Shown here: one piece after another, positions 22,948 to 29,624 of the stretch
Numbering within the stretch: the stretch's first letter is position 1
Layout: the number at the start of each line of letters is the position of its first letter
NCBI GenBank assembly: GCA_947484175.1
Contig: CANKOI010000022.1
Coordinates: 1-47,506, forward strand
Length of the DNA: 47,506 bases
Source: Deltaproteobacteria bacterium
GTDB lineage: Bacteria; Myxococcota_A; UBA796; SXON01
Direction of reading: 5' to 3'
The notes under the pieces: model-generated
What the model was told of the DNA's origin: nothing
The model's database searches: none
Seen by the model: only the letters and a program-made list of their open reading frames with translations
Position numbers and translations under genes: made by a program

Positions 22948-24993
22948 TCACGGCGAAAGTGCCGCCGCCCCCGTCGCCACCCCCGACCCATCCACGCTGA
23001 GCGTCGCCACCTGCACGATCTCGATGGGGTCGGCGCCGGGCTCCGTGGAAGACGCAAGGCCTGGGAGCGCCTGGTTGCTCCCCCAATCGCCCCCGTAGTT
23101 CACCAGCACGACCGAAACGGCCACCGTCGTGCCGCCCGCCGGCAGGCCCAGCGGAAACAGGCTCGTCCACGGCAGGAGCGTCTCCATGCCGTTCTCGGTG
23201 AGCCCCGTGGCGCCGGCATCAGCGGCAGCGGCGCCTTCGGCGATGTTGCCGTCGTCGAAGTTGTTGATCGCGGCTAGCCAAGAGAGATCGTCGGGCGCGC
23301 CGATGTCGCCGTCAAAGCCGCGCAGTCCCACCTGTTCGGAGAGCTGCACGAGCCCGATCTCCTCGGCGCCGAGGGCGCCGAAGGCGGCGTCGAAGCCCAC
23401 GCCCGGCACCGAAACGCTGAGCGAGGTGGTGCTGAGCGCCACGTCGAGCACGTCGAGCGAGTCGGCGAGGGCGAGATCGGCGCCGAGGCCGGTGGCGCCG
23501 CCGTAGTCGAGGTCGATTAGCACCAGCACGGCGTTGTCGCCTCGCTCGAACACCCCGTCCACGCCCACGCGCAGGCCGTCTGCGTCGCTCACCAGGTAGA
23601 GCCCGTCGAGCTGGTTGTAGCCGGCGCCGAAGGAGGTTGACCAGGGCTGGGTGGCCACCTGAGCGCCGAGGTCGCTCGTGTAGCCATCCACCAACGTGGG
23701 CTCGGTGGGACTGGTCACGGTGGAGGCCTGATCGATCGACGCCGCGAGCACGGCGTGCACCCAGAGGTGGTCGAGCCGCTGGCCGTCGAAGGTGGAGGTC
23801 AGGGTGCCGCTCGCGTACACCGGCACGTCGGCGTTCGTGTGTTCGCCCCAGCGCCACGTAGAGGTGGGGATCACCCCCGCGGCGGAAGCCCCCGTGATGC
23901 TGAGCCCTCCGCACTCGTGGTCGGCGGTGACCACCATCGTCACGTCGCGGGGGGTGGTACTCGCCCAGCTCACCCCGGCCGACACGGCGTCATCGAAGCT
24001 GAGCACCTCGTCGTACACCGAATCCTCGTCCATCGCGTGGCTGGCGTGATCGATGCGGGCCCCTTCGACGACGAGCAGAAAGCCTGCGGCGGTGTCGTCG
24101 AGGTAGTCGATGGCGTACTGCGCCATCTCCTCGAGCGTGGGCTGATCGGCGGAGTAGCCCTCCACGACGAACGGGAACGTGTTGCCCGCGAACGTGCCGA
24201 ACAGGGGGCGGCCGTCGTTCACCGCGGCGAAGAGGTCGCCGCGCGTGCTGACCAATTGCGCCGACATCGAGCTGAACAGCGCCGAGAAGTCGTTGGTGCC
24301 CCCGCCCAGCGAAATGTCGGGCAGGTTGGTCGTCCACGCCGAAGCGACGGCGGCATAGTCGCCGCGATCTTCTTCGTGCACCAAAAAGGCCGAGGGAGTG
24401 GCGCCCACCAAGCGGTCGGTCGTGACCACGCCCACGGCGTAGCCGGCCGCCTGTGCCCGTTCGATGAGGTTCTCCACGCTGGCGAGATCGCGGTCGACCC
24501 CCAGCCGCTCGTTGTAGGTCTTGTTCCCCGTGGCGAGCGCGGTGCCCGCCGCCGCCGAGTCGGTCACGCCCGACAACGAGGCGGTGCGAAGCCGCCCCTG
24601 CATCGGGAGCGTTTCCATCACCAGCGAACCCGCCGAGCCCGTGGCGTACATGCCCCCGCCCGCGACATGTTCGAACCCCATCCCGTCGCCGATGTAGAGC
24701 AGGATCGCTGGGCCAGGCGCGGCACCCGTGTCGCCGCTGTCCGCGGTGTCGCCGCTGTCAGCGGTCTCCCCCGTGTCCGCGGTGTCGCCGCCGCCGGTGT
24801 GGCCGGTGTCGCCCGTCTCGGCGGTGTCCCCGCCGCCCGAGGTGTCGCGGCCGGTCTCGGGAGCGGAGTCGCTGTCTACGGGGTCGGAGTCCCCGGTGTC
24901 GGGCGCGCCTCCGGTCTCCCCCACCCCCCCTCCGGGCTCCACCGCAGGATCACAGGCCGCCAGCAACAGCAACCCCACGCAGCGCACCTTCAT
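22948..24993 (-). CDS. Alkaline phosphatase (PhoA superfamily) lipoprotein
   Basis: 681 residues from ATG 24993-24991, with GGAGGG three bases upstream. The lipobox is LLLAAC (C14); residues ~20-92 form a linker of Asp, Thr, Ser and Gly repeats. The phosphatase domain (~96-450) has IGDGMG (D103, metal), the nucleophile motif VTDSAAAGTALATG (S146), RIDHASHAMDED and TADHECGG metal ligands. The enzyme hydrolyses phosphomonoesters with two Zn and one Mg, outside the cytoplasm. A C-terminal ~200-residue beta-rich extension (ALVLIDLDYGG-like stretch to the end) is not part of PhoA and resembles a binding or display domain. The longer open frame to 25938 is the antisense shadow of the next gene. It lies 35 bases downstream of the methyltransferase gene, in the same direction. 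Confidence 0.92.
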   Translation of the reverse strand: MKVRCVGLLLLAACDPAVEPGGGVGETGGAPDTGDSDPVDSDSAPETGRDTSGGGDTAETGDTGHTGGGDTADTGETADSGDTADSGDTGAAPGPAILLYIGDGMGFEHVAGGGMYATGSAGSLVMETLPMQGRLRTASLSGVTDSAAAGTALATGNKTYNERLGVDRDLASVENLIERAQAAGYAVGVVTTDRLVGATPSAFLVHEEDRGDYAAVASAWTTNLPDISLGGGTNDFSALFSSMSAQLVSTRGDLFAAVNDGRPLFGTFAGNTFPFVVEGYSADQPTLEEMAQYAIDYLDDTAAGFLLVVEGARIDHASHAMDEDSVYDEVLSFDDAVSAGVSWASTTPRDVTMVVTADHECGGLSITGASAAGVIPTSTWRWGEHTNADVPVYASGTLTSTFDGQRLDHLWVHAVLAASIDQASTVTSPTEPTLVDGYTSDLGAQVATQPWSTSFGAGYNQLDGLYLVSDADGLRVGVDGVFERGDNAVLVLIDLDYGGATGLGADLALADSLDVLDVALSTTSLSVSVPGVGFDAAFGALGAEEIGLVQLSEQVGLRGFDGDIGAPDDLSWLAAINNFDDGNIAEGAAAADAGATGLTENGMETLLPWTSLFPLGLPAGGTTVAVSVVLVNYGGDWGSNQALPGLASSTEPGADPIEIVQVATLSVDGSGVATGAAALSP

Positions 24994-25028
24994 CGACCCT
25001 CCGAACAGAAGCGGAGTGTAGCCGACCC

Positions 25029-25835
25029 TCAGGCGCGCGCGCTCACCCAGAGCCAGACACTCTCGGTCGCATCGACTGGCACGGACTCCTCGGGAACTTC
25101 CCACCCTTCGCTCCCCGACACCTCCACCTCCCCGAAGCCGGCCGCGCGTAGGTTCGCCATCAGCTCCGCCGGCGTGTACGCCCGGATGGACTGGGCCGGC
25201 GGCTCCACACGTTCCCCGCCCCGGAAACAGATCGTGCGCTCGTCCACCCGGCCGTTCTGGGCGTCGAAACGGATGCTTTGGACCACCTCCACTCGCTCCG
25301 CGAGGGCGCCGGGAGCGACGTACTGGGTGCCGGTGTGCGTGGCCCACCAATAGGGGTTGGGCGTTTGCAGGACGAGCGTGCCCCCGGGCCGCAGGTGTTG
25401 GAGGGCGCCGACGAGCACCTGCTGGTTCTCGGCATCGGTTTCGAACAGGCCGAAGGAGCTGCCGAGAAACAGGAGGGCGTCGAACGCGCCGCCGTTGGGC
25501 AGCCACCGCATGTCGCCGGGCATCCACGTCGGGCCGGGCTGACCGGCGAACAACCGGTCCCAGCGCTCGCGCGCGAGGCGCAGCACCCGCGGGCTGAGGT
25601 CGGCCCCCGTGACCTGATGGCCCCGCAGCGACAGTGCGCCCGCGTGCCGCCCGAGCCCGCAGCCGACATCGAGGATGCGAGCGCCGCGCTCGAGCCCCAA
25701 GAGCCGCTCCACCAGCTCCGCTTCCGCCGCGTAGTCGCCGAGCCCCAGAAGCGCGGGATCGATAGCAGCCAACGCTTCGTAACGGAGGGCCCACCAGGGG
25801 GTGTCGGCGGGTGAATCGTCCATTCTGAGGGACAT
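25029..25835 (-). CDS. Class I SAM-dependent methyltransferase
   Basis: 268 residues from ATG 25835-25833, with GGGGGAG eight bases upstream. Motif I is ILDVGCGLGRHAGAL near residue 55, motif II has VTGADLSPRVLRLAR, and FDALLFLGSSFG is the strand-4 motif. LRPGGTLVLQTPNP completes the Methyltransf_25/11-type fold. The substrate is unknown. It is divergent from the MopE-repeat gene, with a 123-base shared intergenic region, and followed by the phosphatase. Confidence 0.88.
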   Translation of the reverse strand: MSLRMDDSPADTPWWALRYEALAAIDPALLGLGDYAAEAELVERLLGLERGARILDVGCGLGRHAGALSLRGHQVTGADLSPRVLRLARERWDRLFAGQPGPTWMPGDMRWLPNGGAFDALLFLGSSFGLFETDAENQQVLVGALQHLRPGGTLVLQTPNPYWWATHTGTQYVAPGALAERVEVVQSIRFDAQNGRVDERTICFRGGERVEPPAQSIRAYTPAELMANLRAAGFGEVEVSGSEGWEVPEESVPVDATESVWLWVSARA

Positions 25836-25958
25836 GTAGCACGCTCCCCCGCGAGTGCGGCGCCTGCAGGCGTTGCTCGCCGGAACGGGGACAGCTGGGG
25901 CGCCTTCGAGATTCCTCGCATTGTAGTAGTCTGAGCACACGCGAACCCTTGGAGTGCC

Positions 25959-28900
25959 ATGTTCTTCGCCTCCCTGCTCACGATGGCGCTGGCAACGCTT
26001 GCGCAGGCCGCTTGCCCCTCCGCCGAGGCGATCCTCGAAGACCTGACCTGCTCCTCCGCCGTCACGGGGCGCGTGTCCAACTCGGGCACCAGCGACCTTG
26101 GCGGCACCTGCGCGGGCAGCGACTGCTACACCTGCGGCGACCCGTACACCGACCTGGAGCAGACGAGCGCCGAAGACGTCTACGCGTTCACCTGCCAGAC
26201 GACCGGCGACGTGACGCTCGAGATCAGCGGACTCGACTGCGACCTCGACATGTACATCCTCGACGACACCTGCGATCCCGACGGGGCCAGCTGTGTCGAG
26301 GGTTCCACGCAGGCCAGCACGACCACGGACTCCGTCACGTTCACCTGCAGTGCGGGCGACACCTATTACTTGGTGATCGAAGGCTACGGCTTCGGGGCCC
26401 CGGGCGGGTATTCGGGACGCTGCGCCGGCGCGAACGACGGCGACTACACGCTCTCCTTCGACGTGAGCGCGGGAACCGGGTGTTCTGAAGACTGCGACAA
26501 CGGCCTGGACGACGATCTCGACGGCGACGTGGACTGTGCCGACTCCGACTGTGCGTCCGATCCCGTATGCGGCAGCTGCGACAACGACGGGGACGGCGTG
26601 GACTCCTCCGCGTCCGCGTGCGGCGGCCTCGACTGCGACGACAACGATGCCTCCGTGCTCGGGCCGTCCACCTGGTACTCCGACGCCGACGACGACGGCT
26701 TCGGCGGCACTTCCACCACCTCGAGCTGCTCGCAGCCGTCGGGCTACGTGGCCACCTCCACCGACTGCGACGACGCGGACGACACCGTGTACCCGGGCGC
26801 GCCCGAGCTCTGCGACGGCCTCGACAACGACTGCGACGGCACGGTCGACGAGGGCGGGGGCGTGACCTGGTACGAGGACGCCGACGGGGACGGCTACGGC
26901 GACAGCGGGAGCACCAGCCTGAGCTGCTCGGCTCCCCGCGGTTTTGTGGCGGACGACACCGACTGCGACGACGGCGACTCGGCGGTGAACCCTGGCGCCG
27001 ACGAGGAGTGCAACGGCATCGACGACGACTGCGACGGCACGACCGACGAGGACGACGCCATCGACGCCACGACTTGGTACCGGGACGCCGACGGAGACGG
27101 CGAGGGCGATGCGAACGTCACCGACACGGCGTGCGATGTCCCCTCGGGCTACGTGTCCAACGCCGACGACTGCTACGACGACGACGCGGCCGTGAGCACC
27201 TCCGGCACCGAGAGCGCCGACGGGGTCGACCAGGACTGCGACGGCACCGTGGACGAGGGCACCACCTGGTACGACGACGACGGCGACGGCGTCACGGAGG
27301 ACGGCGGAGACTGCGACGACACGGCGGGCGACGTCTCGCCGATGGGCACCGAGACCTGTGACGGCGAGGACGACGACTGCGACGGCGTCACCGACGAGGA
27401 CACCGAGTGCTCCGACGACGACGGCGATGGCACAACGGAGACCGAAGGCGACTGCAACGACGGGGACGCCGCCGTGAGCCCCACCACCGCGGAGATCGCC
27501 TCCAATGGCGTGGACGACGACTGCAACGGCGCGGTGGACGGCGGTGTCTACGATCCGGACGGCGACGGCTACACGGCCGGCGGCGGCGACTGCGACGATG
27601 CCGACGCCACCAGCTACCCTGGCGCGAACGAGCTGCCGGACGGCGCGGATAACGACTGCGACAACGCGATCGACGAGGGAACGACGGCCGCTGACGACGA
27701 CGGCGACGGGTTCTCCGAAGAGGCCGGCGACTGCAACGACGCCGATGCGGCCACAAACCCCGACGCCACCGAGACCGTCAACGGCCTCGACGACGACTGC
27801 GACGGCACCGTGGACGAGGGCAGCGAGCGTACCGACGACGACGGCGACGGGTTCTCCGAGGAGGCCGGCGACTGCGACGACGCGGACGCCGCCACCGCGC
27901 CGGGGGCCACCGAGTCCGAGAACGCCGAGGACGACGACTGCGACGGCACGATCGACGAGGGCACCCCCGGCTTCGACGACGACGGCGACGGCTACACCAC
28001 GGACGACTGCGACGACGCGGACGGGTGGACCAACCCGGGCCGGGCAGACCTGTGCGACGGCGTCGACAACAACTGCGACGGCAAGGTGGACGAGGGCTGC
28101 GAGGTCGAGGGACTCTCGACATCTACGTCCGGAGACTGCGGCTGCGCCTCGGGATCAAGCTCCGCGGGGCTCCTCCCTGCGTTGCTCGCGCTGGTCGCGC
28201 TACGGCGTCGCGCCCGCGCCGGCGCGTTCGGGGGCATCGCGCTCCTCGCCTCCTGCACGCAAGACGTCTCCGTCTCCAGCATCCCCCCCACGCTCACCGT
28301 TCAGCCGGGCGTGCTCGACTTCGGCGACGTGGCCGTGGGCGAGTCGACCACGGACGCCGTGTCCGTGATCCACGTCGGGGGCAAGACTGCGGAAGTGCTC
28401 AGTGTCGATCTCACGGGCGACTTCTTTGCTCTGGACGCGGAGATGCCCGACGTGCCGCCGGACGGTACAGCCGCGCTCTCGATCGCGTATGCGCCCACCG
28501 AGGCCGGCTGGCACGAAGGCGCGGTCACGATCACCTACAACAACACGAAGGAACCCACGATCTCCTTCGTGGTGCGCGGCCACGCCGTCTCACCGAGCAT
28601 GCGCGTTTACCCTTCGGTCCTCGACTTCGGTGTGGTTCTCGCAGGCGAAGCGGGCACGCGCCCGCTCACCCTCGCCAACGAGGGTGACACCGACATCACC
28701 CTCTCGGCGGCCACCTTCGCCAACGCCGCGTTCTCCCTCTCGACGACGCTGCCGGCCACGGTGCCCGCCGGGACGGCGCTCGAGCTCGTCGTTCGCTACG
28801 CGGTGTGCCCGCAGGAAGCCGACGCGTGCGCCCCCGACGCGTCCGCGGTGGCGAGCACGCTCGACCTCGACCTCGACGTGGGCACGGTCACGCTGCGCGC

Positions 28901-29624
28901 CAACGACTGCACCAACGGCACGCCCGACGCGTACGACGTCGACGCCGACGGCTTCAGCTCCTGCGGCGGCGACTGCGACGACCACAGCGAGCTCGCGCAC
29001 CCCGGCGGCGCCGAGACCGCCGACGGCACCGACGAGGACTGCGACGGCATCATCGACGAGGGCACCACCGCCTACGACGACGACGGCGACGGCTTCAGCG
29101 AGGACGACGGCGACTGCGCGGACGGAACGGCGACCGTGAGCCCGGGCGCTCCCGAGGCTCAGGGCAACGGCGTGGACGACGACTGCGACGGGATCATCGA
29201 CCAAGGCAGCACCGACGCGGACACCGACGGGTACGACCCTGACGCCGGCGGCGACTGCGACGACGCCGACGCCACCGTGTATCCCAACGCCCCCGAGCTG
29301 GAGGACGGGCAGGACAACGACTGCGACGGCACCACCGACGAGGGCACCTCCGCCTACGACGACGACCGCGACGGCTACACGGAGAAAGCCGGCGACTGCG
29401 ATGACACGGACGCCGCCATCTCCCCAGCAGATGCCGAGACCGCGAACCACGCCGACGACGACTGCGACGGCACCGTGGACGAGGGCACCGCCAACGGCGA
29501 CGACGACGGCGACGGCTTCACCGAAACCGGCGGCGACTGCGACGACGCCGACGCAGACGTGTCCCCGGCCGCGCCCGAAGTCCGCGACGGCATCGACAAC
29601 GACTGCGACGGCACGGCTTCCTGA
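25959..29624 (+). CDS. MopE-type repeat surface protein, apparent in-frame fusion of two secreted proteins
   Basis: 1221 residues, GGAG four bases before the ATG. Signal peptide MFFASLLTMALATLAQA; then a PPC-like beta domain (~60-170). Nine MopE repeats (~36 residues each, core NDCDGTVDEG...DDDGDGF...DCDD) run to about residue 722. Residues 727-751 are a MYXO-CTERM-like tail: C727-G-C729, a hydrophobic stretch (AGLLPALLALVAL) and R749-R751. Only 15 residues later comes a lipobox (GIALLASC, C766). Two ASH/choice-of-anchor-D domains follow (VLDFGDVAVGES; VLDFGVVLAGEA), then five more MopE repeats. Thus it reads as a MYXO-CTERM protein joined to a lipoprotein, without a stop or start between. 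MopE repeats bind Ca2+ or Cu in known cases. Confidence 0.85.
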   Translation: MFFASLLTMALATLAQAACPSAEAILEDLTCSSAVTGRVSNSGTSDLGGTCAGSDCYTCGDPYTDLEQTSAEDVYAFTCQTTGDVTLEISGLDCDLDMYILDDTCDPDGASCVEGSTQASTTTDSVTFTCSAGDTYYLVIEGYGFGAPGGYSGRCAGANDGDYTLSFDVSAGTGCSEDCDNGLDDDLDGDVDCADSDCASDPVCGSCDNDGDGVDSSASACGGLDCDDNDASVLGPSTWYSDADDDGFGGTSTTSSCSQPSGYVATSTDCDDADDTVYPGAPELCDGLDNDCDGTVDEGGGVTWYEDADGDGYGDSGSTSLSCSAPRGFVADDTDCDDGDSAVNPGADEECNGIDDDCDGTTDEDDAIDATTWYRDADGDGEGDANVTDTACDVPSGYVSNADDCYDDDAAVSTSGTESADGVDQDCDGTVDEGTTWYDDDGDGVTEDGGDCDDTAGDVSPMGTETCDGEDDDCDGVTDEDTECSDDDGDGTTETEGDCNDGDAAVSPTTAEIASNGVDDDCNGAVDGGVYDPDGDGYTAGGGDCDDADATSYPGANELPDGADNDCDNAIDEGTTAADDDGDGFSEEAGDCNDADAATNPDATETVNGLDDDCDGTVDEGSERTDDDGDGFSEEAGDCDDADAATAPGATESENAEDDDCDGTIDEGTPGFDDDGDGYTTDDCDDADGWTNPGRADLCDGVDNNCDGKVDEGCEVEGLSTSTSGDCGCASGSSSAGLLPALLALVALRRRARAGAFGGIALLASCTQDVSVSSIPPTLTVQPGVLDFGDVAVGESTTDAVSVIHVGGKTAEVLSVDLTGDFFALDAEMPDVPPDGTAALSIAYAPTEAGWHEGAVTITYNNTKEPTISFVVRGHAVSPSMRVYPSVLDFGVVLAGEAGTRPLTLANEGDTDITLSAATFANAAFSLSTTLPATVPAGTALELVVRYAVCPQEADACAPDASAVASTLDLDLDVGTVTLRANDCTNGTPDAYDVDADGFSSCGGDCDDHSELAHPGGAETADGTDEDCDGIIDEGTTAYDDDGDGFSEDDGDCADGTATVSPGAPEAQGNGVDDDCDGIIDQGSTDADTDGYDPDAGGDCDDADATVYPNAPELEDGQDNDCDGTTDEGTSAYDDDRDGYTEKAGDCDDTDAAISPADAETANHADDDCDGTVDEGTANGDDDGDGFTETGGDCDDADADVSPAAPEVRDGIDNDCDGTAS

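Follow-up and report, generated by a model that had tools for sequence, protein, structure and literature searches.

Polyproteins are rare in bacteria. The closest described counterpart of the locus considered here comes from work on MYXO-CTERM tails, which are cleaved by MrtX in a reaction for which their Cys residues are needed (PMC11980579). An internal MYXO-CTERM has been reported as a single case, in MXAN_5598 (Guo, Haft and Wall, mBio 2025, PMC11980579). This protein was read as a fusion of two genes in which the N-terminal part is processed, with the overlapping traA/traB given as a parallel, and processing was proposed for internally placed MYXO-CTERM signals (PMC11980579). Since MXAN_5598 has been published, an internal MYXO-CTERM by itself is not new. 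Here, we describe an ORF in which such a signal is followed by an internal lipoprotein signal.

The window (the whole stretch of DNA that was analyzed, 47,506 nt) contains an ORF on the + strand at 25959..29624, which the ORF listing gives as 1221 aa plus stop (ATG 25959, stop 29624). All features described for it are on the same strand. The ORF opens with an N-terminal signal peptide (25959..26009; MFFASLLTMALATLAQA), recognized from the sequence and its hydrophobic stretch, with a predicted cut site. A PPC domain follows (PF04151; aa 72-141, 26172..26381; Pfam, 28.3 bits against a cutoff of 25.9), and then a first block of MopE-type Asp/Cys repeats (PF11617; 26505..28118). Pfam finds 14 MopE stretches over the full-length ORF, compared with 9 in the N-terminal half. 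At 28137..28211 lies a MYXO-CTERM-like sorting signal, assigned from TIGR03901 and from conservation in 21 fused ORFs. It has the layout of a Cys in a short motif (C727-G-C729; C727 at 28137-28139, C729 at 28143-28145), a helix (735-748; 28161-28202), and an Arg cluster (RRR749-751; 28203-28211), and 470 residues follow RRR751 where a MYXO-CTERM signal would be at the extreme C terminus. An internal lipoprotein signal (28212..28256), identified through conservation in the same 21 ORFs, consists of a short loop, a second hydrophobic stretch, and the lipobox LASC763-766 (28245-28256; C766 at 28254-28256). The second half carries an ASH/choice-of-anchor D domain (28281..28556) whose start lies at aa 775-778 and whose scores exceed the cutoff (PF15780, 50.7 bits; NF012200, 58 bits in 2 stretches). 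This is followed by a second, weaker ASH domain and a second block of MopE-type repeats (28937..29620; Pfam) that ends in ...GDCDDADADVSPAAPEVRDGIDNDCDGTAS; most fused ORFs have a similar C-terminal end.

The original prediction had placed a lipobox Cys 15 residues past a complete sorting signal, and its coordinates and residues proved correct, with C766 lying 15 residues past R751 in a frame without a stop. It had also claimed that the gap holds neither a stop nor an in-frame start, and the sequence from RRR749-751 to the lipobox indeed contains no stop and no in-frame ATG, GTG, or TTG. The only such codon between the cysteines of the two signals is a TTG at 28182, farther upstream and inside the first helix, where there is no Shine-Dalgarno (SD) match. 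Directly upstream of the ORF, the stretch 22948-25940 carries on the opposite strand (-) an alkaline-phosphatase-like lipoprotein (MKVRCVGLLLLAACD...) and a SAM-methyltransferase-like ORF (25029-25940), both assigned by eye.

The sorting signal (aa 724-753) scored 17.8 bits against TIGR03901, just below the cutoff of 20. At an E value of 0.1 or less, the fused junctions matched TIGR03901 in 15 of 21 cases and TIGR03382 in 6 of 21. The genome encodes a candidate cognate myxosortase, a CPBP protease (L044:976-1872) that scored 112.2 bits against Mrt_core (NF040914; cutoff, 100) and has the motifs EEFFYR (EExxxR) and HAWCN (HxxxN). This protease fell below the cutoffs for MrtX, MrtP (161.4 against 250), MrtC, and MrtZ; as the class's member of the myxosortase family, it may belong to a subgroup that has no name yet. 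The MrtX model has matches in 68 of the 71 class genomes. Within the same genome as ORF 25959-29624, further MopE proteins end in ordinary C-terminal MYXO-CTERM tails (e.g., SCGCGSASAFPGALLLAAGVAAVRRRRRGGRGGKLG, followed by the stop). In the internal lipoprotein signal, LASC766 has a small residue at -1, Cys at +1, and a preceding hydrophobic stretch. Lipoprotein signals are otherwise N-terminal and follow a start of their own; this one is internal, and the ORF has no SD-preceded start for it. The genome also encodes two LspA and four Lgt homologs. In alignment A2, which comprises the junction region (28119-28823) and its 20 relatives, "midcut-by-XrtH" (NF033207) matched two junctions (best E value, 5e-4), and "lipo-invert" anchoring tails matched two (best E value, 0.007).

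To characterize the distribution of this arrangement, we ran profiles A1 and A2 against all 71 class genomes and about 308 others from the phylum. Fused ORFs (n = 21) were found in 13 of the 71 class genomes, from five families (f1, f3, f6, f7, and f9); these genomes are apparently metagenome assemblies or drafts, and, phylogenetically, the pairs and fusions counted here are not independent observations. Single fused ORFs were encoded by G000, G001, G005, G016, G019, G032, G038, G055, G066, and G069, while G067 and G068 had two each and G065 had seven. No fusions outside the class were among the matches listed for the roughly 308 other genomes. In the A2 search, the fused ORFs exceeded 200 bits, whereas the scores of unfused ones lay below 195. 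The other fused ORFs shared only 24 to 36% identity with ORF 25959-29624. Invariant in the alignment of all 21 were the second motif Cys (C729), one Arg, and the lipobox Cys, which was preceded by G, A, or S in every case; hydrophobicity of the second transmembrane stretch was weak in a few. The distance from Arg to lipobox varied from 15 to 43 residues, in frame throughout. The seven fused paralogs of G065 have differing N-terminal ectodomains and a lipoprotein half of the same type (L082, L087, L088, L089, L092, and L094).

An open frame is cheap in such DNA. At 77% G+C, 17 codons stay open by chance with P of about 0.9, and the chance of an open junction is high across 66 to 88% G+C, so that the lack of a stop in one copy is weak evidence. 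The case rests instead on recurrence and on the conserved residues. Because the same layout, with conserved signals and variable in-frame spacing, occurs repeatedly among these genomes, we reject an artifact, and the ORF probably encodes a genuine precursor and does not reflect an error of sequencing. A query with the junction against 94 relatives likewise recovered the same continuous junction in other genera and families, the outcome named beforehand as speaking against an assembly artifact.

Whether the two halves are separate genes elsewhere had been set as a check, and they are. At 15 loci in relatives (e.g., G013:C205, G026:C22, G031:C189, G063:C397, and G068:C506), detected only within 600 nt upstream of the lipobox, a MopE-MYXO-CTERM gene is followed immediately downstream or, often, with overlap by an ASH-MopE lipoprotein gene. 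The same unfused pair occurs in the metagenome-assembled genomes Kiruna_bin-11227 and RH-23may17-505, and other lipoproteins are standalone. A locus in the same genome as ORF 25959-29624 (L039; G000:C31:24500-31500) has the reverse order, with a standalone ASH-MopE lipoprotein gene upstream of a gene for a MopE protein with an ordinary C-terminal MYXO-CTERM tail. In a tree built from the lipoprotein halves (n = 70), parsimony assigns 11 changes to the fused label, at least 3 of them forced by well-supported branches, and in none of 200 bootstrap trees (0%) did the fused copies group as a single clade. The tree thus points to repeated fusion and/or fission across the lipoprotein family. The N-terminal half of ORF 25959-29624 has homologs in two other families, where they likewise form the N-terminal part of fused ORFs (51% identity in G055, 49% in G068, and 39% in G032), so its fused architecture is probably old, and the recent fusion offered in the original prediction is unlikely.

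It is possible that the halves were joined by neutral fusion, which would come easily where stops are rare at high G+C, bring no advantage, and perhaps allow partial processing. This explanation, which addresses persistence more than the mode of processing, draws on the ease with which the junction stays open by chance and on the number of times that the fused state has changed on the tree. We nevertheless regard it as unlikely, given that both signals have been retained over long divergence, that homologous fused genes are common to three families, and that one genome keeps seven fused paralogs.

We consider it likely that ORF 25959-29624 encodes one precursor that forms a hairpin with its Arg residues in the cytoplasm and is cut by a myxosortase and by Lgt/LspA into two anchored proteins. 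Under the positive-inside rule, an Arg-rich segment between two hydrophobic stretches lies on the cytoplasmic side. As RRR749-751 occupies that position, it is predicted to be cytoplasmic, with both long halves outside. Specifically, the N-terminal signal peptide would direct Sec export of the first half (PPC and MopE repeats), the MYXO-CTERM helix would halt transfer while RRR stays in the cytoplasm, and the next hydrophobic stretch would serve as an internal type II signal peptide that exports the second half (ASH and MopE repeats). Myxosortase cleavage at the CGC motif would release a C-terminally anchored protein. Lipidation and cleavage at C766 by Lgt/LspA would yield an ordinary N-terminally lipidated protein, and the two helices would be discarded as a hairpin. 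Both products would arise in a 1:1 ratio and would probably be partners on the outer surface, with the outer membrane as their predicted destination.

The hairpin could instead remain uncut, leaving a whole two-domain membrane protein with two helices and both halves periplasmic or on the surface. The same sequence would be expected to give identical topology, and uncut MYXO-CTERM proteins in mrtX mutants still partly reach the surface (PMC11980579). However, the Cys residues of both signals and the G, A, or S before the lipobox Cys are kept in 21 of 21 fused ORFs while most else drifts, and because a mere hairpin needs neither, we find an uncut protein quite unlikely.

Alternatively, the locus could comprise two overlapping genes in the same frame, with the second half made also, or only, from an internal start (TTG 28182 or a nonstandard CTG). 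The TTG is in frame, 24 codons before C766, and G032 has an ATG 17 codons ahead of its lipobox. Yet no internal start is conserved. All standalone lipoproteins (57/57) have a start codon within 10 to 36 codons of the lipobox, whereas 5 of the 21 fused ORFs lack one. SD matches of 4 nt or longer accompany 74% of standalone copies versus 10% (2/21) of fused ones (Mann-Whitney P = 8e-7, uncorrected for relatedness and with some lipoproteins lacking MopE repeats in the unfused set). Furthermore, the first frame reads through regardless, which would yield the long product in any case. An internal start as the main route is rejected for most copies, and overlapping genes are a distinctly improbable explanation overall. 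In G005 and G065:C134, the two fused ORFs with a surviving in-frame start and SD-like match, translation may begin internally. Overall, fused copies have mostly lost separate initiation while keeping the internal lipoprotein signal, a pattern expected of a precursor. Given the recurrence, the retained signals, and this loss of internal starts, a single precursor is the best reading. An assembly or base-call error by which two neighboring genes lost an intervening stop or a few bases is very improbable: the genome is a 167-contig draft and relatives have unfused neighboring genes, but recurrence in 21 ORFs of 13 genomes refutes error as a general explanation, along with the small assembly deletion proposed originally, and these genomes include G001, of the same genus, which lacks a start codon between the signals.

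The original prediction is thus partly supported as a whole, and its option of a dually processed polyprotein is backed by the comparative evidence. We lean toward viewing the fused ORFs as a recurrent class of envelope polyproteins, in which opposite lipid-anchoring signals stand back to back, a two-helix hairpin between them is discarded, and two different intramembrane proteases yield products fixed at 1:1. If true, two unrelated membrane proteases would divide one polyprotein at anchoring signals of opposite kinds, the myxosortase would tolerate a downstream helix and exported domain, a lipoprotein signal would function in midchain, and MopE/ASH lipoproteins would be partners of MYXO-CTERM surface proteins. 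Natural variants for testing are at hand in the pairs and fusions. Meanwhile, annotation rules that restrict both signals to protein ends overlook the fused cases.

Other systems share parts of this arrangement. As proposed for the fused ORFs, the bacterial cytochrome b/c1 precursor FbcH of Bradyrhizobium is divided at a signal peptide inside the chain; unlike them, it is cut by signal peptidase I and has one signal only and no sorting tag. The midcut-by-XrtH model (NF033207), which weakly matched 2 of the 21 junctions, implies by its name a mid-protein cut by exosortase H and, judged by that name only, a different enzyme. We know of no second lipoprotein signal in the ArtA-processed protein of Haloferax. 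That substrate has an internal tripartite signal and, as cited, offers an experimentally processed sorting signal that is not C-terminal, although it is archaeal and served by another enzyme (Abdul Halim et al. 2017, cited in PMC11980579). The recurrent pairing of internal MYXO-CTERM and internal lipoprotein signals was not found in the literature searched, which likewise yielded no informative account of midcut proteins. As far as that literature shows, the recurrence, the coupled lipoprotein signal, the family of fused and paired genes, and the loss of internal starts are new. Like the fused ORFs, MXAN_5598 has a mid-ORF MYXO-CTERM followed by a second exported module (PMC11980579). That module is an outer-membrane barrel with an OmpA domain, whereas in the fused ORFs it is a lipoprotein that keeps its lipobox and carries ASH domains and MopE repeats, and MXAN_5598 is one case, compared with 21 cases in 13 genomes and 15 unfused pairs in the present family.
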